Assembly: GCF_000017625.1 (NCBI RefSeq)
Contig: NC_009712.1
Span: 1,178,001 to 1,242,000 of the forward strand
Reading direction: 5' to 3'
Length of the DNA stretch: 64,000 nt
Source of the DNA: Methanoregula boonei 6A8
GTDB taxonomy: Archaea > Halobacteriota > Methanomicrobia > Methanomicrobiales > Methanospirillaceae
The notes beneath the pieces were generated by a model, which saw nothing but the letters and a program-made list of their open reading frames with translations, was not told the DNA's origin and made no database searches. Positions 20,397 to 35,726 of the stretch are shown piece after piece (within the stretch, counting starts at the first letter, position 1; the number at the start of each line of letters is the position of its first letter). Both the position numbers and the translations under genes were made by a program.

Positions 20397-21674
20397 TTAG
20401 GTTCCCAGGGTAATGCTCGTTGGCCAAAGATTTGAGATCGATAATCCATAGGTTGAGGGATTCCAATAATTAGTATTGTAATATCCTGACATAGGATAAT
20501 TTGAGATAAGATTATTTCCATTACTGTCTTTTAACACAAAACTCTGGAACGTGATAGGTCCGCATAAATATTGTGAATTCAGGCCACCCAATGGAGTTGT
20601 TGGATCCCACCCTTCCAGTACTATCTCTGCCTGCAGATTTGTAGTTGGCATTCTTATAGGCGCTGAGCTTTTGGCAAGGAAAAGCGTTGAGCTGCCTCCA
20701 CCTTGATTGCCCAAATCCGTAATTGATGCTATGCCATCATATCCCAGTGTATTTAACTGGATATTTCCCTGCATCTGATCACCTGAGTAAATTCCAGAGG
20801 TTCTGGTCGAGTGAATAAATGAATTGCCACTCCCCCATACATACCATGTTGCCATGGTCCATTGTGGAGTACTGGGGCTTGGAATTTGGTAACCGTCTTT
20901 CATATACCATTCAAGAACTGGCTGCAATAAACTGGGGTCATTTTCAAGTCCATTCCAGATCTCCAACGACGAATCATAATACACACTTCCAATAACCAAA
21001 CTTTTCGTAAGGGTTGGTTTAGTTGGAACGTTCCACTGAGATATGAATTGCCCAACAGCAGTGGGTATAGCATTAGTTGAACCCCATTCAATCCATTGCG
21101 GACTGATTGTCGAGGAGCTACTCGCCGTTAAAGCGCTGTTTTTCCCAGAGATGCTATCATCGGTAACTGTCAGGATTAACATATTATTGCTAAATACGTA
21201 CAGCACATTGCCCATGTCATAAATTACTGATTTGTCGGGAACTTCCTGAACATGTGTCGCTGGCACACGTCCTTTAAACGTGCTTACGAGACCTGCTTTA
21301 CTATCGTCTGCAGTAAAGAGTTGTTTTCCCGTAGAATCAAATACCGTTGTAATACCATCAATCGAGTGATGAATAATTGCACCGAAGGGTATTTTGGATA
21401 TTGCTGGATTGCTTGCTCCTTCTACCATCCTCGCAATCTGAGTACTTTGGATATTTGGGTCAAGGCTCATTTCATCGTTCATCACGATTGGCGTTTGATT
21501 TTTGTCATAAATGAGTTGGGGCAGTTGAATTTTACTGACATCAATTGTCGATGCATTCGTTTGATTGGGAGATGCGATTACTGTACTTTGCTCAATCGCA
21601 CTCACCATCGGTACCATCATCATCGCTGCGAGCAGGAATACAAGCAGGATGATGCTAACTTTCAGTGTTTTCAT
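20397..21674 (-). CDS. Exported glutamic-peptidase (eqolisin, G1)-like protein 2
   Basis: This 425-residue protein has signal peptide MKTLKVSIILLVFLLAAMMM, a pro-like segment sharing 'SKIPFGAIIHHS-GITTVFDS-GKQLF' and 'PATHV' with protein 1, and a C-terminal domain with 'QWNVPTKP', 'IWNGLEN', 'LLQPVLEW', 'TMATWYVWG', 'YSGDQMQGNI' and 'IVLEGW'. The candidate catalytic pair is Gln251 and Glu354, aligned with Gln250 and Glu340 of the first paralogue. Overall sequence is strongly diverged beyond the signal peptide. ATG 21674 follows AGGGGG. The assignment to G1-like fold is by motif order only; neprosin-like or other carbohydrate-binding jelly rolls are alternatives. Confidence 0.62.
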   Translation of the reverse strand: MKTLKVSIILLVFLLAAMMMVPMVSAIEQSTVIASPNQTNASTIDVSKIQLPQLIYDKNQTPIVMNDEMSLDPNIQSTQIARMVEGASNPAISKIPFGAIIHHSIDGITTVFDSTGKQLFTADDSKAGLVSTFKGRVPATHVQEVPDKSVIYDMGNVLYVFSNNMLILTVTDDSISGKNSALTASSSSTISPQWIEWGSTNAIPTAVGQFISQWNVPTKPTLTKSLVIGSVYYDSSLEIWNGLENDPSLLQPVLEWYMKDGYQIPSPSTPQWTMATWYVWGSGNSFIHSTRTSGIYSGDQMQGNIQLNTLGYDGIASITDLGNQGGGSSTLFLAKSSAPIRMPTTNLQAEIVLEGWDPTTPLGGLNSQYLCGPITFQSFVLKDSNGNNLISNYPMSGYYNTNYWNPSTYGLSISNLWPTSITLGT

Positions 21675-21920
21675 GGTGTCATTCCCCCTATTTTTTGATA
21701 CGCTTCGCTCTCTGGCATGGGATCTGCACAATCCTGATTCTTTTACGCCATCAAGCGTTCCAGGGTCCTTTAAAGATCATAAGACTGGGATTGTCCTCAG
21801 GGACCCTGCGGAATACCCGGAAGTATTCACAAAGGGGTATTCAGAAATTTTTCATTTTATATTTTCTGTCCACATTTCCCAACTGCCAGTTGGGATCTTT
21901 GGACAGAAAACGTAAGTTAT
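21601..21920 (-). repeat. Promoter-leader-signal-peptide cassette, copy B
   Basis: This is the partner of 17958-18275. The signal-peptide codons, leader and operator match nearly base for base, with scattered substitutions. The similarity fades a few codons after the signal peptide. Confidence 0.75.
21862..21910. promoter_or_regulatory. Operator copy 7 (best nested palindrome, divergent promoter)
   Basis: The perfect outer arms TTTTCTGTCC (21862-21871) and GGACAGAAAA (21901-21910) surround the perfect palindrome CCCAACTGCCAGTTGGG (21878-21894), all centred on 21886. TTTTATATT abuts the left arm. The site lies between the leftward eqolisin-like gene (start 21674) and the rightward secreted protein plus regulator (start 21942), and would cover the transcription start of the regulator operon. 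Confidence 0.82.
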
Positions 21921-24756: not shown

Positions 24757-25533
24757 TTACTCCCCCACCTTCTCCCGTGCCATCTTTATCATCTTCCCCG
24801 CCAGCTCCCTCACCGCCTGTCGGGCCGGACTTCCCTCCGGGATCTGTGACACCGGTGTCGCTGCGAGATCCGCGGCCTCAACAGCCGGGTCTTCGGGGAT
24901 TATGGCGATCGGTTTTTCATTCCCTATATCCACCGGTGCGGCACCGGCCTTGTACCGGTTGAAGACCACGTGGATCTTCTCCGGTTCAAGGCCCAGCTGG
25001 GTGGCGATCTCCCGGATCCGGGTAATGGTCCGCAGGCCCCGGGCGCCGGGATCGCTTACGATCAGGAGCACGTCCGGTGTTCCGATCGTGCCCCGGCTGA
25101 TGTGCTCCATGCCGGCCTCGGTATCGATCACGAGGAACTTGTAGTCCCGCTCCAGCTGCTGCATGCATTCCGAGAGGAGATCGTTTGCAAAACAGTAGCA
25201 GCCGGTGCCTTCGGGCCGGCCCATGGCCACGAGATCGAACCCGTTCGCCTCGACGAGTGCCTGCCGGAACCGGAACCTCACGTAGTCATGCCGGTTCATA
25301 CCCGGGGGAATGTTCCGGGAGAACGCTTCTTCCCGCATGCTGCCGAGCGTTTCGCGCACTTCAACCCCCAGCGCTTCATGGAAGTTCGCATTGGGATCTG
25401 CGTCAACCGCAAGGACCGGGCTTTCGCCGGCTTCGATGAACGAGCGGACCAGAAGGGAACTGATCGTTGTCTTCCCCGTCCCTCCTTTTCCGGAGAGCGC
25501 AATCGTAAACGGGCGTGGTCGTGGTGGTGGCAT
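24757..25533 (-). CDS. cooC: CooC-type nickel-insertion ATPase for CODH/ACS
   Basis: This 258-residue MinD/SIMIBI-class ATPase has the deviant P-loop 'SGKGGTGKTT' (14-23), 'VDADPNANFHEALG', and the family-specific 'GRPEGTGCYCFANDLL' with a C-x-C metal-binding pair at the dimer interface. CooC/AcsF proteins use ATP to help insert nickel into CO dehydrogenase or acetyl-CoA synthase. It is the last gene of the acs operon, 18 nt after the methionine-synthase-like gene. Since no CODH is encoded here, ACS maturation is the likely local task. Confidence 0.9.
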   Translation of the reverse strand: MPPPRPRPFTIALSGKGGTGKTTISSLLVRSFIEAGESPVLAVDADPNANFHEALGVEVRETLGSMREEAFSRNIPPGMNRHDYVRFRFRQALVEANGFDLVAMGRPEGTGCYCFANDLLSECMQQLERDYKFLVIDTEAGMEHISRGTIGTPDVLLIVSDPGARGLRTITRIREIATQLGLEPEKIHVVFNRYKAGAAPVDIGNEKPIAIIPEDPAVEAADLAATPVSQIPEGSPARQAVRELAGKMIKMAREKVGE

Positions 25534-25551
25534 GGTCTCTCACGCTCTTTT

Positions 25552-26592
25552 TTAGGATAACTTTGCTTCTGCCCGGATTCTCCGGGAAATTTCGGCTGCT
25601 GCCTGCTGGATTTCACGGGCCCCGTTCCGGTCTGCAAACCGGATCCCGCAGCTCGGCGTGATCATCGATTGGGCATCAAAGAGCTCCGCCGGGATTTTCT
25701 TTGTCATCTGGGAGCGTATTGCGGAGTACTTCGCATAGAGCGAATCCACGGTCTCTGTGGCAAAGAGTTTGTACTCGGCAGGGACAATGCCCCATGCAAC
25801 AACGCCTCCCCGTTCCATGTATGCGGCAACAGCCTCTGCATAGAGCATGAATTCTGTTGCGGTAGTATAGGCATCAAGGGAGATCAGGGAAGGATCAAGA
25901 CCGATAACAAAACTCCAGTCGGTATTCGAGCAGCAGTGAACGCCAAGGCCGCCTTTGACCAGCGTTGCGATGTCCTCCCAGCCGGATTTTATGCTCGCCC
26001 GGTCGAGCGGCACGACTGATGAGCCAAGTGAGGCAAGGTAAGGCTCGTTTAAGACAACCAGCGTTTCTTTTATCCCGGTCCTTGCCTGCATCTCGTTTTC
26101 GCACCAACGGGCCTTGAGCGCGATCATCTTCGCGAGGACATCGGCGATCTGGGCATCATAATAGATCGGCCGTTTATCGGCATCAACAACCTGCATCCCG
26201 AACGTGACTGGGCCCGTCACCTGGCACTTGAGCACCCGGGCGCCGGCAAGCGGCCGGCCCAGCATCTCGATAAATGCGGATGCATGGGTGGCATCAAGGC
26301 CGTAGGGCGCAAAATTCTCTTCGACAAAGTCCAGGTACACCTTCTCCATGTCTGCGGAATTGTCCCGGGTGCTGTCGTAGAGCAGCCGCCCCTCGCGGAT
26401 CACCTGCCCCGGGAGCTGGGCCGAGTCGTTAAAGACAATCCCCTCAAGGAGCCCGCGGTCGGGCAGTGTCGGGGCGTACGGGAACTCCGCGAAGATCTCA
26501 AGGACATCATCGCATGCAAGTACCGGATCGGTATGCGGGAGTGCACCGATACCGGTGGCGCGGGAGTTTGGGGATGGGATCATCTTTGACAT
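25552..26592 (-). CDS. Core methionine synthase-like protein (MesB type, UROD/MetE superfamily)
   Basis: This 346-residue TIM-barrel protein resembles the C-terminal catalytic half of MetE. The start 'TGIGALPHTDP' and 'VTGPVTFG' are typical of the superfamily. A zinc site is suggested by His219-x-Cys221 in 'GVHCCSN' and Cys315 in 'TPSCGIRF'. Short folate-independent methionine synthases of the MesB group are encoded beside corrinoid iron-sulfur protein genes and are thought to take the methyl group from that protein. The location, directly after acsD-acsC-acsV, fits MesB. A methylcobamide:CoM methyltransferase-like role is the alternative. The ATG directly follows the stop of the previous gene. 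Confidence 0.75.
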   Translation of the reverse strand: MSKMIPSPNSRATGIGALPHTDPVLACDDVLEIFAEFPYAPTLPDRGLLEGIVFNDSAQLPGQVIREGRLLYDSTRDNSADMEKVYLDFVEENFAPYGLDATHASAFIEMLGRPLAGARVLKCQVTGPVTFGMQVVDADKRPIYYDAQIADVLAKMIALKARWCENEMQARTGIKETLVVLNEPYLASLGSSVVPLDRASIKSGWEDIATLVKGGLGVHCCSNTDWSFVIGLDPSLISLDAYTTATEFMLYAEAVAAYMERGGVVAWGIVPAEYKLFATETVDSLYAKYSAIRSQMTKKIPAELFDAQSMITPSCGIRFADRNGAREIQQAAAEISRRIRAEAKLS

Positions 26593-28500
26593 TCAGGTTG
26601 CCTCCTTTTTCTCGCGCAGGGAATCGAGCAGTGCCTGCACCCGGGGGAAGAGCGAGAGATCCGTATGCGGGAGGAAGGCGCTTGATGTGTACTCGTCCAT
26701 GAACGAGGGCTCGGCATTGAGTTCGATGTACGCGATCTTCCCGGCGATACCATCCAGGAGTTTGCGCTGCCTGCGGTTGATAAGCGCCATATTGGCCCCG
26801 GCTACTGCCCCGTTCCCGATATTTTTGATCCGCTCGAGATCGATCTCCGGGATCAGGCCAGCAATGGTCGCGTTTTTCTTGTTGATGTAGTTGCCAAATG
26901 CCCCGGCAAAGTAAATGGTGTCAATGTCAAGCCGTGTGACCCCGGCCTCTTTCATCAGCGTAACGCAGGCAGCATGGATCGAGGCCTTGCTCATGATCAG
27001 GTTCTTGATGTCGTTTTCCGTGATCACAATGTCTTTTCCGATGTCAGTCTCGCCCGCCCAGGCAACCACGTACTCCGGGTAATGGGAACCGGAACGGATC
27101 CGGGGATTAGTTATCCCGGTGTTGATCCGTCCTGTCCGGTCAATGACACCAACAGAGAGCAGTTCAGCGATAATATCAATCAGGCCGGAGCCGGTAATCC
27201 CTTTGGGCTTGATCCGGTTTATCGTGGCATACGTGGGTTCAAGCGTAGCCGGATCGATCGAGATCTTCTCGATAGCACCGGGATTTGCCCGCATGCCATA
27301 GAGCACCTCACCTCCCTCAAGCGCCGGCCCTGCTGCCCCGGCGCAGGAAAACATCCACTCGCTATTCCCGAGCACTACTTCGAAGTTTGTCCCAATATCC
27401 ACAAGGAGCGAGATCTCCTCCCTCTCGCTCATCCGGCAGGCAAGGATGTCGGCAATGATATCTCCACCAATGAAATCGCTGACGGCAGGGAAGGCAAAGA
27501 GCCCGCAGTTGTCATTGCAGGTGATCCCAATCCGCGCCGCCGCAACCGAGAGCGCACGTTGCACCACGGGAACATAGGGTTCCTTGATGATATAGGCCGG
27601 GTCAATGCCAAGGAGCATATGGGTCATCACGGTATTTCCCGCAACTACGACTTCGTAGATATCCTCGCGGTCGATCCCTGCGCCATTGGCCGCGGCAGTA
27701 AGCGCCGAGTTGATGCTTTCTACGGCAAGTGTCTGGAGTTTTTCAATCCCGTTTTTCTGGGCATAATTGACCCGGGCAAGGATATCTTCCCCGCAACTGA
27801 TCTGGCGGTTATAGTTCGAGGCAACCCCGGCCGCCTTTCCCGAGATCAGGTCCCAGAGGTAGGCAACGACCGTAGTAGAGCCAAGATCGACTGCTGCCCC
27901 GTAGAGCCGTTGTGAGGTATCGTTCTCCTGGAGATCGATAAGCCGGTAACCCCCGGGAACAAGGGCAACGGTCCCGGTCACTTTCCAGTCGCTGTGACGG
28001 AGCAGGGCAGGGATCTCACGCATCACCTCAAGGGGTGCGTACATCTTTTCTGCAACCGGTCCGCCTTTTTTCTGGATCCCCCAGAGCAGGCGGGAAAGGT
28101 CCGGGGACGGATCGGCAAGGGTCGGCTGCTGGAGCTCCACGTAATATTTTTTTACGGACGGATGGAACTCGATTGGAGCATCCATTCCGTCAATGAGGAT
28201 CTTCTGCTCCTGGATGAGCGTACTTTCCGGGATAACTACCTGGAGATCTCCCTGGATCGTGGTAACGCAGGCAAGGCAGGTGCCTTTTTTTAACTCTTCC
28301 TCGGTAAAGAACCGCCCGTATTTTGCCCGGTCAAACTCGGCCTTGCCGGACTGGACAATGACCACGCATTTCCCGCATTTACCGATCCCGCCGCAGACCA
28401 CGTTCATGTTGATCCCGGCTTTCTGCGCAGCATCGAGGATGGTTGTCCCGCGGGGGGCGTCGATCTTGCGGTAACTGGGAAGGAAGGTGACTGTGCGCAT
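26593..28500 (-). CDS. acsV: Reductive activator of corrinoid protein (RACo/AcsV-like)
   Basis: This 635-residue protein has an N-terminal [2Fe-2S] ferredoxin domain ('VCGGIGKCGKCVV...CLACV', about 35-80) and a C-terminal ASKHA-type ATPase domain (about 195-600; 'AVDLGSTTVVAYLWDL', 'LVDIGTNFEVVLG', 'FAGAFGNYI'). Proteins of this kind use ATP to drive electrons uphill and rescue the inactive Co(II) corrinoid of the CoFeS protein. The length and 2Fe-2S type match bacterial RACo rather than the methanogen RamA, which carries 4Fe-4S clusters. It abuts acsC (stop 28501, start 28500) and is clearly in the same operon. Confidence 0.88.
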   Translation of the reverse strand: MRTVTFLPSYRKIDAPRGTTILDAAQKAGINMNVVCGGIGKCGKCVVIVQSGKAEFDRAKYGRFFTEEELKKGTCLACVTTIQGDLQVVIPESTLIQEQKILIDGMDAPIEFHPSVKKYYVELQQPTLADPSPDLSRLLWGIQKKGGPVAEKMYAPLEVMREIPALLRHSDWKVTGTVALVPGGYRLIDLQENDTSQRLYGAAVDLGSTTVVAYLWDLISGKAAGVASNYNRQISCGEDILARVNYAQKNGIEKLQTLAVESINSALTAAANGAGIDREDIYEVVVAGNTVMTHMLLGIDPAYIIKEPYVPVVQRALSVAAARIGITCNDNCGLFAFPAVSDFIGGDIIADILACRMSEREEISLLVDIGTNFEVVLGNSEWMFSCAGAAGPALEGGEVLYGMRANPGAIEKISIDPATLEPTYATINRIKPKGITGSGLIDIIAELLSVGVIDRTGRINTGITNPRIRSGSHYPEYVVAWAGETDIGKDIVITENDIKNLIMSKASIHAACVTLMKEAGVTRLDIDTIYFAGAFGNYINKKNATIAGLIPEIDLERIKNIGNGAVAGANMALINRRQRKLLDGIAGKIAYIELNAEPSFMDEYTSSAFLPHTDLSLFPRVQALLDSLREKKEAT

Positions 28501-29835
28501 TTAGGGTTTCCATTCCTGCACGAGATATTCGCCTATCTCCGCAGCGTCCCGGGGCCCCACAAGGACTTTCCAGCCGGTTGCCTCTTCTATCCTGCCGGAA
28601 AGGGGAGCGGCATAGCCCGGGATGATCAGTTTCCGGTGGTTTACCTCTCCCTCTACACCGAATTTTTTTATCGCGTCCCGGACCAGCGACTCGTTAAGCT
28701 TTCCTGCGGCAACAGAAGTGAGTACCGAAAGCCCTTCGGTATCCACGATCAGCATAAAGCAGGGGATCCGGGTGGATTCGAGGTAACCCTGGAGGGTGAA
28801 ATAGGTCAGCGAGAAGTTGACCGTCATGAGCACCGGGGCATCCTTTCCCGGGGTCCCGACCCGGTAAATGCCAGGGTTCATCTGGATGGGCTTCTGGGGA
28901 TCCGTGTAAATATTCTGGCGCAGGGTGAGCGCTGCCTTTGCCGATGCCGGGGAGAGGGGTTTTGCCACAATGACCGAAGCGTACTTGACAATACCAAGGG
29001 CAATCGCAGCATCCTCATCCTCAAATGTCGTCGCATCGAGGTACACAGGGTACCCGAGATCCGGTACCGCCCGGGTAATGGCCAGCTGCCGCACTGCAGT
29101 GGAGCGGTACAGGAAATCCCCAAGGGTTTTTGCACCGGGATCGAGAAGGATATCCGGCACACCTTCTGCAACGCAGTCTTTCGCGAGCTGGACAAGTGCT
29201 TCAAGGGTGGATGCCCGGACAACGAGCCGGCAGGCATACTGTTTTGCAAGCGCACAGATCTGCTTATAGTTTTCCGGCGTTGCTGCGCAGATTGTGGGAT
29301 GGTAACTCCCGCACAGGACAAGCGCCGCAGCAAGGGCTGCCGGGTTCTCTGAGACAAGGACCTCAGGAAGCCCGGCCGTTTTTTCCACGGCAGCCACTGC
29401 TTTTGCATACGCCTCGATCGTACCGCTTGTATTGACAATGGCAGTACCATTAAATTTCAGGTCGGCTCCCACCCGGGTCAGGGTTTCATCCCGGACCCGT
29501 GCGGTTATGGCAGTTATTTCCTCTTCGCTCTGGGTATCGGACACTACAAACATGATGCCCGGCGGATGGTAGAAGGTCTTGTCATGGCGGTAGAGGACAA
29601 ACTCCTCACCGACTGCAAAGGACCGCTCCCCAACCCCGAGCTTGACCCGCCGTATCGGCGGCCGGGTCGTGGCACCAAGGACCGACTTTGCATTCTCGTC
29701 AAGGTACGGGCAGAGTTCAATATCGGCTTTGCCGGCCGCAAGCTTCATGGCAAAGGTCAGGCAGGTGGGATCCCCGCACTCCTTGCAGTTTTTCCTGGGC
29801 AGGAGTTTGTAGATATCAAGGGCCTTAAGCGGCAT
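28501..29835 (-). CDS. acsC: Corrinoid iron-sulfur protein large (gamma) subunit
   Basis: This 444-residue protein is the large subunit of the CoFeS protein that carries methyl groups from the pterin methyltransferase to acetyl-CoA synthase. The N-terminal [4Fe-4S] motif 'RKNCKECGDPTCLTFA...CPYL' (about 14-40) is followed by a TIM barrel and a C-terminal corrinoid domain. The start at ATG 29835 gives 'MPLKALDIYKLLP' and lies 2 nt after the acsD stop. A longer in-frame start would overlap acsD by 130 nt with non-conserved sequence. It corresponds to archaeal CdhE; the neighbours are of bacterial type. Confidence 0.93.
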   Translation of the reverse strand: MPLKALDIYKLLPRKNCKECGDPTCLTFAMKLAAGKADIELCPYLDENAKSVLGATTRPPIRRVKLGVGERSFAVGEEFVLYRHDKTFYHPPGIMFVVSDTQSEEEITAITARVRDETLTRVGADLKFNGTAIVNTSGTIEAYAKAVAAVEKTAGLPEVLVSENPAALAAALVLCGSYHPTICAATPENYKQICALAKQYACRLVVRASTLEALVQLAKDCVAEGVPDILLDPGAKTLGDFLYRSTAVRQLAITRAVPDLGYPVYLDATTFEDEDAAIALGIVKYASVIVAKPLSPASAKAALTLRQNIYTDPQKPIQMNPGIYRVGTPGKDAPVLMTVNFSLTYFTLQGYLESTRIPCFMLIVDTEGLSVLTSVAAGKLNESLVRDAIKKFGVEGEVNHRKLIIPGYAAPLSGRIEEATGWKVLVGPRDAAEIGEYLVQEWKP

Positions 29836-29837
29836 AT

Positions 29838-30785
29838 CTAGGCGCCTCCGGTTCGCGTATTCAGGCCGTAAAATGCCTCCTTGAGGCGTTTTACGGTCAG
29901 GGGGTGCCGGACGCAGACAATCTCTGCCCCGGCAACTGCTGCCGCAAGACTTGTGGTAAATTCCCATTCCACGGCCATGGCATCCCGTGAACCGGCATCG
30001 GCCTCCCGCACCTCTTTTATTGTGAGTGAATCAGAGGGTGCGCAGATCATCGGCATGGCAAGATCCGTATCCCCTTTGAGTGCAGAAAACCGGATCCGCT
30101 CCATCGCAGAGTACGTGTACTCAAAGCCATACCCCAGTGCCCCGGTGTACGGATCAATTACGATATGATCCCGTGAGATGCCGATCTCCTTTAAGAGAAT
30201 GTTGAGCTGTTTTGCGAGATTGATATCGATCGGGGACTGGGCTATGATTGCATGGTTGTAGGCCAGGGCCGCCGCTGCAATGCTCCGGTACCGTCCGGCC
30301 TCGGCTGTACCAAGGAGAAGGCGCTCTCCCTGCCCGGTCTCACCGCATTTCTGGAAAACTTCGCTGTCGATCTTCGGCTCGTTGCTTCCCTCTATGATAA
30401 GCGGCAGGGCGGTGCCGGTAAGAACAGATTCTGTCGTTTTCCCGAGCGTGGCAATGTCGGAAAAGTCCCGCTGCTTTGTACTGGTCAGGCAGAGCCGTAC
30501 AAGGTCTGCACCGTATGCGGTTTCCGCAGTCTTTGCCCATGCAGCCGGATCATGGATAAGATCGCCGCAGTACTCATTTACGATCGGTGACCAGTACCGG
30601 GGATCATCGCAGATCTCAAATGCAATAAGGGGCGGGCGAGCGGCAGTATCTTTTTCCATAAAGGGGAGTGTCGTGCCACCACCAATCCGGTAGGAGCGTG
30701 AGCGCGTTCCTCCCTCGGATCGGGTTGCGCCAAGGATGACTTCTCCCACGGTACCGGTCCAGCCAAAATTCGGGTCAGGTATCAT
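29838..30785 (-). CDS. acsD: Corrinoid iron-sulfur protein small (delta) subunit
   Basis: This 315-residue TIM-barrel subunit pairs with AcsC. Typical stretches are 'EICDDPRYWSPIV', 'IEGSNEPKID', 'DHIVIDPYTGALGYGFEYTYSAMERIR' and 'MPMICAPSDSLTIKE'. At about 315 residues it has the length of bacterial AcsD and is much shorter than typical methanogen CdhD. ATG 30785 is chosen over the GTG at 30791 because GAGG lies 7 nt before it. The gene starts 9 nt after the acsB stop. Confidence 0.92.
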   Translation of the reverse strand: MIPDPNFGWTGTVGEVILGATRSEGGTRSRSYRIGGGTTLPFMEKDTAARPPLIAFEICDDPRYWSPIVNEYCGDLIHDPAAWAKTAETAYGADLVRLCLTSTKQRDFSDIATLGKTTESVLTGTALPLIIEGSNEPKIDSEVFQKCGETGQGERLLLGTAEAGRYRSIAAAALAYNHAIIAQSPIDINLAKQLNILLKEIGISRDHIVIDPYTGALGYGFEYTYSAMERIRFSALKGDTDLAMPMICAPSDSLTIKEVREADAGSRDAMAVEWEFTTSLAAAVAGAEIVCVRHPLTVKRLKEAFYGLNTRTGGA

Positions 30786-30794
30786 AAGCACGCC

Positions 30795-32825
30795 TCACAT
30801 CAGGGGTTTCATGGCAAGCGCCGGGTGGCCGACACGTTCGAGAAATGCCATCAGATCCTCAATTGTCGGGGCGGATACTTCGTCGGCGATCTTATCAAAC
30901 AGGTCAGGGTGCCCTTTTGCCGCAAGCAGGGGGACAAGCCGGGGTTTGAGCTCCTCTTTGAGCTGGGAGGGCATCCAGACCAGCCGCTCGATCCCGCCCT
31001 CTCCCTGGAGGAACCGGTCAGAGAGGATATAGTTCTTGGATATCCCGGCAAAGCCCGGAGTCTGGGCACCGCCACCGATGGTCCCGGCAAGAGTTGAAAA
31101 AGTCATTCCGGAAGGTGTCATGCCCTTGTATTCCCGGTTGACCACCATGATGCCGTTTACTTCGGGAAGCATGAGTGCGATGGCCTCAAAACATCCGCAG
31201 CAGGTCATGGGAAATTCCATCACGCTGTACAGGGAGCATCGTTCTATCTCGCCGTGACTGGCTTTCTTGACAAACCGGTTAACTCCCTCGAATTCGCCGT
31301 TCTGGACATTGACGGGTGCGCCTTTTTCCACCGGCTGGTTTGCGCCCGAGGGGGACATCTCATACGCGATCTTCCCGTCAAGCCAGCTGATCGCCCCGCA
31401 GAGGGCAGGCCGTTCGGGCGTAATTACGCAGACATGGTTAGGGGCAAAGGTCTGGCAGAGCGTGCAGGAATAATAGGTGTCGACATCATTGTCCCGCATT
31501 CCCTTAATGCGGGCATCACGCTCTTCGTAGATCTTCTCTGCCTCGTTTTTTCCTGCAAGCACTTTTTCCGGGTCGGTAATAAGCGTAACAGAGACGGCAT
31601 CAAGGAGCTGGGGGAAATCCATCCGGAATTTGCTTGCAAGAAGTTTTCCCAGATGCTCGATCTTTACGCCTTTTGCAAAAGCTTCCTTTGAGATGCGCAC
31701 CCAGACAAGGTCCCGCTGTGCAACATGCCATGACCCTTCGCCATAATTGACGAAATTGTGGATCCGCCGTTCGAGCACCGGCTCATAGTCTTTCTTCATT
31801 CCTTTGCCGGTCACTTCAATAACAATACCCAGGGGATATGCCCCTCCCTCTTTCATAGTATCTATTTCAGGCCCGACAACTGTCACTTTCCCGTCTTCAA
31901 TCTCACCGGGATTTTTCATCCGCAGCAGTTCAAAGGCCGGGGAGCGTCCGCCGCCAAACTCCACCTGCATCTCTTCTTTTCGTATGCTCTTTCCTTCGAA
32001 TGCAGGAGAGCACCCCATCGGAATGGGGATGGCAGTGACCGTGACCCGGATCCCTTTGAGTTCCATGCCGGTGCGAACAACATCATCGGGAGTGGCAGGA
32101 GTCCAGTCCCCGCCCTCGTATCCCTCCAGGGTAAGGAGGGGAAATCCCAGCACCCGCATGGCATCGACAAAGGCTATCTCTTCGTCAGAGAGGCCGGGAA
32201 AGACAATGACAATAGCTTTTGCCCGCTCTGCAGCGTATGACAGGAGCCGCCCGGTATCACCCGGTGAAACCCCGCCAAACATCATCGCAACCCGGGCAAT
32301 GATATCAACAAAATGTACGCTGTGAACCGGTCGGGAACCAAGAGGGATAAGCCGGTAATCAAGGCCCAGTTTCACGCCGGCTGAGGAAAGGGAGGAGATC
32401 ACGTCGCCGGCAAGGAAGGTGAGCATATATTTTTCCTGGAGCTCACGGCAGATTGCCGCTGCGGTACCGGCACCCGGGGGTCTGCCAACGATCAGGGCAA
32501 GACCCAGGATACTTCCGTCCACCAGGGAGTACCCGAGTTTCCGGATAACGGTGTCACTGATAAAACCGGTATAGGGAACAGGCTCCTTCCCTGTCCCGGC
32601 AGTTTCCGCGGCAAGCAAAGATTCTGATGCCACCAGGGGGTTTTCCCCGGTCTTTGCATAAACATCAGTCGCAGATTTCCGGTCATGCACAGGAATGCCT
32701 GTCAGGGCATACGATATCGGAAGGTGGTACGCCGTTTCGTCATAGGAAAATTCGCTCGAAATGTGGGCGAGTTTCTCTTTGAGGTGCCCGTTTCCGGTTT
32801 TTTTGGCCAGGATGACGTCGGTCAT
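30795..32825 (-). CDS. acsB: Acetyl-CoA synthase, bacterial type with N-terminal domain
   Basis: This 676-residue protein makes acetyl-CoA from a methyl group, CO and CoA. A-cluster cysteines are Cys454, Cys457, Cys466 and Cys476 for the [4Fe-4S] cluster and Cys543-Gly-Cys545 for the distal nickel, with the same spacing as the Moorella enzyme. Unlike archaeal CdhC (usually under 500 residues), it keeps the N-terminal Rossmann-like domain ('GFISDTVIRKLGYSLVDGSI...') that in bacteria contacts CODH, though it is shorter than the usual 730 residues. It is the first gene of the operon. No cdhA/acsA (CODH) or cdhB gene lies nearby. Confidence 0.95.
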   Translation of the reverse strand: MTDVILAKKTGNGHLKEKLAHISSEFSYDETAYHLPISYALTGIPVHDRKSATDVYAKTGENPLVASESLLAAETAGTGKEPVPYTGFISDTVIRKLGYSLVDGSILGLALIVGRPPGAGTAAAICRELQEKYMLTFLAGDVISSLSSAGVKLGLDYRLIPLGSRPVHSVHFVDIIARVAMMFGGVSPGDTGRLLSYAAERAKAIVIVFPGLSDEEIAFVDAMRVLGFPLLTLEGYEGGDWTPATPDDVVRTGMELKGIRVTVTAIPIPMGCSPAFEGKSIRKEEMQVEFGGGRSPAFELLRMKNPGEIEDGKVTVVGPEIDTMKEGGAYPLGIVIEVTGKGMKKDYEPVLERRIHNFVNYGEGSWHVAQRDLVWVRISKEAFAKGVKIEHLGKLLASKFRMDFPQLLDAVSVTLITDPEKVLAGKNEAEKIYEERDARIKGMRDNDVDTYYSCTLCQTFAPNHVCVITPERPALCGAISWLDGKIAYEMSPSGANQPVEKGAPVNVQNGEFEGVNRFVKKASHGEIERCSLYSVMEFPMTCCGCFEAIALMLPEVNGIMVVNREYKGMTPSGMTFSTLAGTIGGGAQTPGFAGISKNYILSDRFLQGEGGIERLVWMPSQLKEELKPRLVPLLAAKGHPDLFDKIADEVSAPTIEDLMAFLERVGHPALAMKPLM

Positions 32826-34196: not shown

Positions 34197-35726
34197 ATGA
34201 CAGCGCCCTCTGCCAGAAAGTTTGGCTTTATAGCCCACATGCCCGATGAGCCCGGCTCGCTGGAGCAGGCGGCCCAGGTCATAACCCGGTACAATGGCAA
34301 TATCAACCGCATCCAGTACGACCGGAGAATTGATCCCTGCACGGTCTTTTACGAGGTAACTTCAACAGAAGAAGAGTATGCAAGGATCACCGGTGATCTT
34401 GCGGATATCGGCTATCTCCAGACTTCATTGCAGCCGGTAAGTTTTCTCAAATTCTTTGTCCATCTCCCCCACGCACCGGGCTCATTGCACCGGTTTTTAA
34501 AATTCACTACAGAATCCGGGGCAAATATCGGATTTATTGATTTTGACGACACCGGCAGGTTCCCCGACCGGCTCACGGTGAGCCTGAACCTTGAGGATCC
34601 GGCTGCAGTTGAAAACCTCCTCGATCAGCTCAAATCGAGGTATCACCTGGAGATCCTTGAGTACGATACGACCGGGAAGCATCTTGACGATACGGTCTTC
34701 TATGTTAAATTTGCACAGGAGATCCGTGACCTGATCGGAGAATCTGAAAATGAGTTTCTCCTTTCTTTTCTTGCCGATACCAACCATATTGCACAGGAAC
34801 TGATGAACCGGGGGAACAATCCCCGGCAGGTCTTTGACAGTGTGCTTCTCACCGGGCGGACCCTGCGGGCCACCACCGGCAAAAATTTCTACGCCGATGT
34901 CCAGAAAATCCAGATTACTCCTGCGGTCAGTCTTTTCTGTTTCCAGCTCCCCTGCGGAGGAAGCATCTATGTGCTCTTTTCCGGAAAAGAGGCCCTGATG
35001 ATCGATACCGGGTACGGTATTTACCATGATGATGTCATGGCAATGTTTTCTTCTTTTGGTCTTGGAGAAGAAGGAAATTTTACCGGCCTTGTTATCACCC
35101 ATGCGGATGCCGATCACTGCGGGGGCGGGGGCTTTTTTTCGGCCGGTGCAGTTATGCATACCGGTACCCGTGATATCATAAAAACAAACAACCGGGCGTA
35201 CGGGTCCCGGAGCGAGCACTCTGTTCTTGAATCGTTTTACACCAAGATGATCAATTGCTTCTCCCGCTTCAACCCCCCCGGGAACGTAACCTGCCTCCAG
35301 AAGGCCGGGACCTCAGTGCAGAGTATCTTCCCGGTGCTTGGATCTGTTGCCATTGCAGGAATCAGGCTTGAGATCCTCGAAGGGCTGGGGGGTCATACAC
35401 ACGGGCAGATCTATCTTTATTCCCGTGAAGAGGGCTTACTTTTTACCGCAGACGCGGTGATTAATTTTTCCAGTCTTACACCGGAACGTGCTTCATACAG
35501 CTCTCTTGCGGATTTTCTGGTTAGCTCGGTAAACGTGGACAGCGATCTTGCACGCAGGGAGAGAAAAGCGCTGCTTGAACTTGCCACAGAGACTGACCGG
35601 GAGCTTGCCCGCAAGGGGAAACGCTGCCTTATCTGCGGGGGGCATGGTGCGGTATCGGTTCTGGACAAGGGCAGGCTTGTTCCCTGTGGGGAGATAACCC
35701 GCTACCAAATACCTGATGCCCCCTGA
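34197..35726 (+). CDS. Tandem ACT domain / metallo-beta-lactamase fusion
   Basis: This 509-residue protein has two ACT domains ('FIAHMPDEPGSLEQAAQVI', about 11-80; 'FFVHLPHAPGSLHRFLKF', about 84-155), a helical linker, then a metallo-beta-lactamase fold (about 245-480). Metal motifs are 'THADADHCGGGG' and 'GGHTHGQIYLY' with a later 'TADAV' and 'GGHG'. The usual HxHxDH is HxDxDH here, a variant also seen in ComEC-like members. ACT domains bind amino acids, so a ligand-gated hydrolase is plausible. No substrate can be named. It stands alone, with no close neighbour on the same strand. Confidence 0.85.
   Translation: MTAPSARKFGFIAHMPDEPGSLEQAAQVITRYNGNINRIQYDRRIDPCTVFYEVTSTEEEYARITGDLADIGYLQTSLQPVSFLKFFVHLPHAPGSLHRFLKFTTESGANIGFIDFDDTGRFPDRLTVSLNLEDPAAVENLLDQLKSRYHLEILEYDTTGKHLDDTVFYVKFAQEIRDLIGESENEFLLSFLADTNHIAQELMNRGNNPRQVFDSVLLTGRTLRATTGKNFYADVQKIQITPAVSLFCFQLPCGGSIYVLFSGKEALMIDTGYGIYHDDVMAMFSSFGLGEEGNFTGLVITHADADHCGGGGFFSAGAVMHTGTRDIIKTNNRAYGSRSEHSVLESFYTKMINCFSRFNPPGNVTCLQKAGTSVQSIFPVLGSVAIAGIRLEILEGLGGHTHGQIYLYSREEGLLFTADAVINFSSLTPERASYSSLADFLVSSVNVDSDLARRERKALLELATETDRELARKGKRCLICGGHGAVSVLDKGRLVPCGEITRYQIPDAP

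Follow-up and report, generated by a model that had tools for sequence, protein, structure and literature searches.

A bacterial-type acetyl-CoA synthase operon lacking a CO dehydrogenase gene in Methanoregula boonei and its relatives: a putative CO dehydrogenase-independent methyl-transfer chain

What can an acetyl-CoA synthase (ACS) of bacterial type do in a methanogenic archaeon when its operon holds no gene for carbon monoxide dehydrogenase (CODH)? The question was raised by a stretch of 64,000 bases from Methanoregula boonei 6A8 (the window; C1:1178001-1242000 of a single-contig genome of 2,542,943 bases), in which six abutting genes, acsB-acsD-acsC-acsV(RACo)-mesB-cooC, occupy positions 24757-32825 (-) with intergenic gaps of 0-18 bases. 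Neither a CODH gene nor cdhB was found inside or adjoining this operon. An earlier description made from the letters alone (the sequence-only reading) had noted the tight packing, the bacterial character of AcsB and the missing CODH and cdhB genes, all of which held; it had left the fifth gene unnamed, and this proved to be mesB, the key to the operon. The results favor a self-contained, CODH-independent methyl-transfer chain, to which a probability of roughly 60% is given, and which probably strips methyl groups off acetyl-CoA.

The AcsB protein matched the full-length bacterial ACS models NF040764 (910 bits with a cut-off of 800, over residues 14-676) and NF007078 (926 bits), as well as ACS chains in the PDB. 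Both features of a bacterial-type ACS are present: the full-length match across domains A1, A2 and A3, and the six invariant cysteines of the A-cluster (454, 457, 466, 476, 543 and 545 of AcsB), all of them kept. The archaeal acetyl-CoA decarbonylase/synthase (ACDS) complex, CdhABCDE, shares with this system ACS domains A2 and A3, at about 46% identity, and homologues of the corrinoid iron-sulfur protein (CoFeSP). It differs in that its CdhC is without the N-terminal A1 domain found here, while the present operon is without the neighboring cdhA and cdhB and its proteins fall in separate tree clades, so AcsB is not a CdhC of that complex. The bacterial CODH/ACS of Moorella, Carboxydothermus and Clostridium autoethanogenum has the same three-domain ACS and A-cluster, yet the operon does not encode such a complex either: it has no CODH partner gene, it occurs in CODH-free genomes, the residues of the CO tunnel are replaced, and the A1 domain of the Methanomicrobiales AcsB is shorter, with several segments of CODH-paired ACS missing.

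In bacterial CODH/ACS, CO reaches an alcove through a tunnel, the alcove being lined in Moorella by F229, I146, F512, V149 and G145 (PMC11321310, PMC12289521). When 69 AcsBs from Methanomicrobiales were aligned with 34 other ACSs, most of the latter from operons with CODH genes, the alanines 218 and 222 of Moorella, which lie one helical turn apart on the same helix, were found replaced in every Methanomicrobiales sequence (A218F and A222I/L/V), as was the alcove residue Ile146 by Tyr (Table 1). The other four alcove residues, Phe229, Phe512, Val149 and Gly145, were kept. Among 150 columns invariant in the other ACSs, only 12 had changed as a group in Methanomicrobiales, A218 and A222 being two of them. 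Leucine stands at the exact place of A222 in the PDB entries 8cja, 8cjb and 8cmw, and 8cjb has in addition a methionine at the place of A265, where Methanomicrobiales mostly carry Leu or Phe. Work by Tan et al. in 2005 is said to have found that A222L blocks the CO tunnel in Moorella. The alignment suggests that the AcsB of Methanomicrobiales no longer has an open gas tunnel of its own towards CODH, as the substitutions would close it. Comparable changes have been engineered at the tunnel to block CO channelling, so this enzyme offers a natural experiment on the role of the tunnel and on ACS without CODH. The gating residues Met148 and Trp151 were also considered as diagnostic positions and rejected, because they differ among CODH-paired bacterial ACSs as well.

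Table 1. Genes of the six-gene operon and AcsB residues compared with Moorella ACS (window coordinates)
Feature	Coordinates	Strand	Description
acsB	30795..32825	-	bacterial-type acetyl-CoA synthase, 676 amino acids; domains A1, A2, A3
acsD	29838..30791	-	317 amino acids; NF003376 (388 bits), PF03599
acsC	28501..29835	-	444 amino acids
acsV/RACo	26593..28500	-	635 amino acids; 2Fe-2S ATP-dependent reductive activator of corrinoid protein (RACo); RACo domains
mesB	25552..26592	-	346 amino acids; core methionine-synthase-type Zn methyltransferase; Zn ligands His219, Cys221, Asp240, Cys315
cooC/acsF-type P-loop ATPase	24757..25533	-	258 amino acids; Walker motif, CxC motif of CooC/AcsF
AcsB Phe172	32310..32312	-	equivalent to Moorella Ala218; Phe in all 69 Methanomicrobiales, Ala in all 34 other ACSs
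AcsB Ile176	32298..32300	-	equivalent to Moorella Ala222 in the CO tunnel; Ile/Leu/Val in all 69 Methanomicrobiales, Ala in all 34 other ACSs
AcsB Tyr99	32529..32531	-	Moorella alcove Ile146; Tyr in 69/69 Methanomicrobiales, Val/Ile/Phe in others

The search of the whole genome contradicted the idea that the organism is without CODH. A complete cdhA-cdhB-cdhC-cdhD-cdhE operon was located at about C1:1398.6-1409.6 kb (cdhA of 786 amino acids), accompanied by two cooC-like ATPase genes and a second RACo, and a monofunctional cooS-cooC pair lies at C1:863244-866063. The second RACo-type activator, which ends the archaeal cdh operon (L006:2650-4497 (-)), has 615 amino acids and shares 36% identity with AcsV of the six-gene operon.

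The distribution of these genes was then surveyed in 199 Methanomicrobiales genomes. Bacterial-type AcsB was detected in 84 of them (65-89% identity, full length) and MesB likewise in 84, the two together in 83 and each alone in one. Both exceptions (G180 and G108) are contig ends, and a MesB missing from one locus (L093) falls in a masked run of N, so the co-occurrence of AcsB and MesB is perfect once contig breaks are allowed for. The same six-gene order was observed in every long Methanomicrobiales locus, never with a CODH gene inside, and MesB was found in none of the 16 genomes having only the archaeal Cdh complex. CooS showed no association with AcsB (36/84 AcsB genomes against 46/115 others; Fisher p 0.77, uncorrected for relatedness), and CdhA was missing from 44 AcsB genomes. 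No CODH of any kind was found by search in 16 AcsB genomes, nine of which are at least 90% complete (G004, G029, G071, G080, G092, G112, G140, G149 and G164), one of these being a single contig. A Prismane-family search of the nine returned nothing in six and only Hcp in three, these Hcp proteins being about 70% identical to the Hcp of M. boonei and matching CooS weakly. The combination of ACS, CoFeSP and MesB with no CODH is thus found in nine relatives, while the present genome does have CODH. A second CODH-like protein, counted as CODH in all of these tests, is common in the order (L206:4293-6269, families f4, f5 and others) and is 33-36% identical to the CooS of M. boonei.

The sequence-only reading had named an acsA-type gene close to the operon in relatives as evidence that would speak against it. 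In part this was seen: a monofunctional cooS-cooC pair lies about 2 kb downstream in four relatives, but outside the operon and, in the one inspected, with unrelated reading frames in between; the AcsBs aligned from such loci carry the same tunnel substitutions. Despite these four cases, the co-occurrence data gave no support to AcsB as an obligate partner of CooS.

The identity of MesB does not come from profile models. No match was obtained for the window protein among Pfam or NCBIfam models, the search of the genome with PF01717 matched MesA only and missed MesB, and a PDB search with MesB returned nothing useful. It aligned with bacterial MesB-like proteins across the whole length at 34-35% identity, its four zinc ligands are invariant in 49/49 relatives and follow the HCDC pattern given for MesB by Price et al., and the genome contains AcsC and AcsD, another feature of MesB. 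The homocysteine-binding Ser and Asp (Ser433 and Asp599) are only "mostly conserved" in MesB according to the same source, and therefore not strictly defining; in the window protein their equivalents are Ala17 and Asn182, these positions are mixed within Methanomicrobiales, and the bacterial MesB relatives keep both residues. Price et al. 2021 already describe operons of certain methanogens in which mesB adjoins acsC and acsD, as it does here, and Methanomicrobiales that have MesB in addition to MesA; bacterial-type AcsB, CODH-free genomes, tunnel loss and an altered homocysteine site do not appear in the text covered. As MesB went unseen by the Pfam and NCBIfam models, operons of this kind may be annotated automatically without their methyltransferase.

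Trees were built for AcsB, AcsC and AcsD, with bacterial references mainly from one phylum. The Methanomicrobiales AcsBs formed one clade (Shimodaira-Hasegawa-like approximate likelihood ratio test, SH-aLRT, 100) outside archaeal CdhC (100) and adjoining three bacterial genomes (SH-aLRT 82, long branches). AcsC and AcsD of the operon also fell in clades of their own, apart from archaeal CdhE and CdhD, with the deep branching unresolved. The possibility that the operon is a CdhC/CdhD/CdhE set misread as bacterial was rejected by these trees, within the limits of references drawn mainly from one phylum. The three bacterial genomes (L191, L192 and L193) hold the closest AcsBs in the sampled bacterial phylum (46-48% identity) and have their genes in the same arrangement, acsB-acsD-acsC-acsV-mesB-cooC; no CODH gene lies within 19 kb. 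A six-gene module shared between archaea and bacteria is therefore supported, with neither a direction of transfer nor a donor supported. The earlier suggestion that the genes were transferred as a unit gains only partial support: the AcsC and AcsD trees do not resolve the deep branching order, and in BLAST comparisons AcsD comes out marginally closer to archaeal CdhD. In all three trees a metagenome-assembled genome labelled Methanospirillum pairs closely with one of Methanoregulaceae (L083 and L117), and one of the two may be mislabelled.

On the preferred reading of a CODH-independent chain, AcsB would reversibly split acetyl-CoA at its Ni-Ni-4Fe4S A-cluster into coenzyme A (CoA), CO and a methyl group, which AcsCD (the CoFeSP) would accept on its corrinoid. 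AcsV would reactivate the corrinoid when over-oxidised. MesB would move the methyl group from AcsCD to a thiol bound at its zinc; homocysteine is the likeliest acceptor, and methionine would then be the product. CO would exit by diffusion or, in genomes that have CooS or Cdh, be consumed by them. The CooC/AcsF-type ATPase would mature the nickel site; since CODH-free genomes retain it too, its target is presumably the nickel site of ACS, whose maturation is probably its role in the operon. The observations behind this reading are the gene content, the intact A-cluster and zinc ligands, the strict operon and its co-occurrence with MesB, the near-complete CODH-free relatives and the lost tunnel alanines; from them we infer the direction of flux, the thiol acceptor, the fate of CO and the closing of the tunnel by the substitutions. 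The remark in the sequence-only reading that the complex might have some other use for CO or for methyl groups gains support. A comparable route has been proposed for Dehalococcoides, which is without CODH: the relevant papers hold that AcsB splits acetyl-CoA, that CO leaves the cell and that the methionine methyl derives from the methyl of acetate (PMC7005905, PMC7857596). According to these published descriptions, the incomplete Wood-Ljungdahl route of Dehalococcoides mccartyi likewise combines ACS and CoFeSP without CODH and has a core-MetE/MesB as presumed methyl acceptor. It differs from the present case, in which the host is a methanogenic archaeon with methyl-tetrahydromethanopterin (methyl-H4MPT) and MesA, certain species also have a complete Cdh, the genes form a tight operon, and the tunnel residues are replaced. 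M. hungatei, a member of the same taxonomic order, needs acetate for cell carbon (M. hungatei genome paper), and this makes acetyl-CoA derived from outside acetate a plausible substrate.

Several observations weigh against this explanation. Methyl-H4MPT is already available in methanogens, so acetyl-CoA would be a costly source of methyl groups. The three close bacterial operons, which have no CODH nearby, retain both tunnel alanines (Ala at 218 and 222). Their MesB also keeps Ser and Asp. In the Methanomicrobiales MesBs the equivalent of Ser433 is mostly Ala or Gly (Ser kept in 8/49) and that of Asp599 is Asn in 43, Asp in 4 and Ser in 2 of the 49. Finally MesA, another core methionine synthase, is encoded in 188/199 Methanomicrobiales, this genome included, and methionine therefore does not require the operon. 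Homocysteine, although the most likely acceptor, is uncertain because its binding residues are altered and MesA is present in nearly all genomes, and another thiol is possible.

That other thiol is the point of one of the alternatives, in which CODH-free cleavage proceeds as above while MesB methylates, for example, coenzyme M, bringing the acetate methyl into methanogenesis or another pool. The invariant zinc ligands beside a mostly replaced Ser/Asp pair, which the bacterial relatives keep, and the supply of methionine by MesA in almost all genomes would suit it. Ser or Asp is nevertheless retained in some sequences (the 8 and 4 of 49 given above), Asn and Ala are mild changes, and PMC7857596 assigns the members of MesB a role in making methionine; this alternative is considered rather improbable. 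Equally doubtful is an evolutionary version, in which a plugged tunnel has set the archaeal ACS apart from CODH in the course of evolution, and the enzyme, as an acetyl-CoA decarbonylase, vents CO and feeds methyl groups by way of MesB to some thiol that is not homocysteine, such as coenzyme M; if true, it would be a previously unrecognised entry of the acetate methyl into Methanomicrobiales.

The main rival on direction is synthesis of acetyl-CoA from dissolved CO, in which AcsCD would take the methyl group of methyl-H4MPT and AcsB would add CoA and CO coming from a separate CooS or the environment, as an assimilatory CO or acetyl-CoA module with MesB as a side branch. Dissolved CO needs no tunnel, the ACS of C. 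hydrogenoformans binds it tightly even with a blocked tunnel (PMC12289521), and cooS occurs in this genome and many relatives, close to the operon in the four mentioned. Against it stand the lack of association between AcsB and CooS across the order, the nine good genomes without any CODH, a constant partner that is MesB and not CODH, and the lack of AcsE in the operon, and we regard it as unlikely. The conventional arrangement, with AcsB docking on a CooS or CdhA encoded elsewhere as in an ordinary CODH/ACS with its subunits apart, would account for the retained A1 domain in a genome with cdhA and cooS. It agrees poorly with the uniform replacement of the tunnel alanines, the segments lost from A1 and the CODH-free genomes, and archaeal CdhA supplies an A1-like surface of its own (PMC11474084), which makes such docking very improbable.

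A cryo-electron microscopy paper on a methanogen complex states that no methanogen and no modern archaeal ACS has the N-terminal domain of ACS (PMC11474084), and another paper asks whether methanogens are without the alcove (PMC11321310). The presence of a three-domain ACS across much of a methanogen order contradicts the former statement. The Dehalococcoides-type route and the mesB-acsCD operons of methanogens were already known; the three-domain ACS in an archaeal order, its CODH-free genomes and its replaced tunnel residues are new as far as checked, and may have been noticed earlier, Adam et al. 2018 being outside the literature covered. The preferred reading of CODH-independent acetyl-CoA cleavage predicts release of CO by hydrogenotrophic methanogens. 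The operon might in addition help to explain what Cdh-annotated genes do in acetate-requiring methanogens, a question left by the M. hungatei genome paper, supposing that these genes are the same as the operon described here.

Some minor features were recorded as well. The start of AcsC was set at 29835 (444 amino acids) instead of the start of the longer open reading frame, and the AcsV-like match of RACo (NF040756, 557 bits) lies under the model cut-off of 800. In the window, positions 20397-21731 (-) encode a secreted-looking protein of 444 amino acids with no Pfam match, and positions 34197-35726 (+) a protein that unusually combines a metallo-beta-lactamase fold with an ACT-like domain at its N-terminus. 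Outside the window, a 352-amino-acid frame at C1:406871-407221 aligns with PF03599 in the C-terminal corrinoid part alone, a pattern also seen in the HgcA proteins of mercury methylation.

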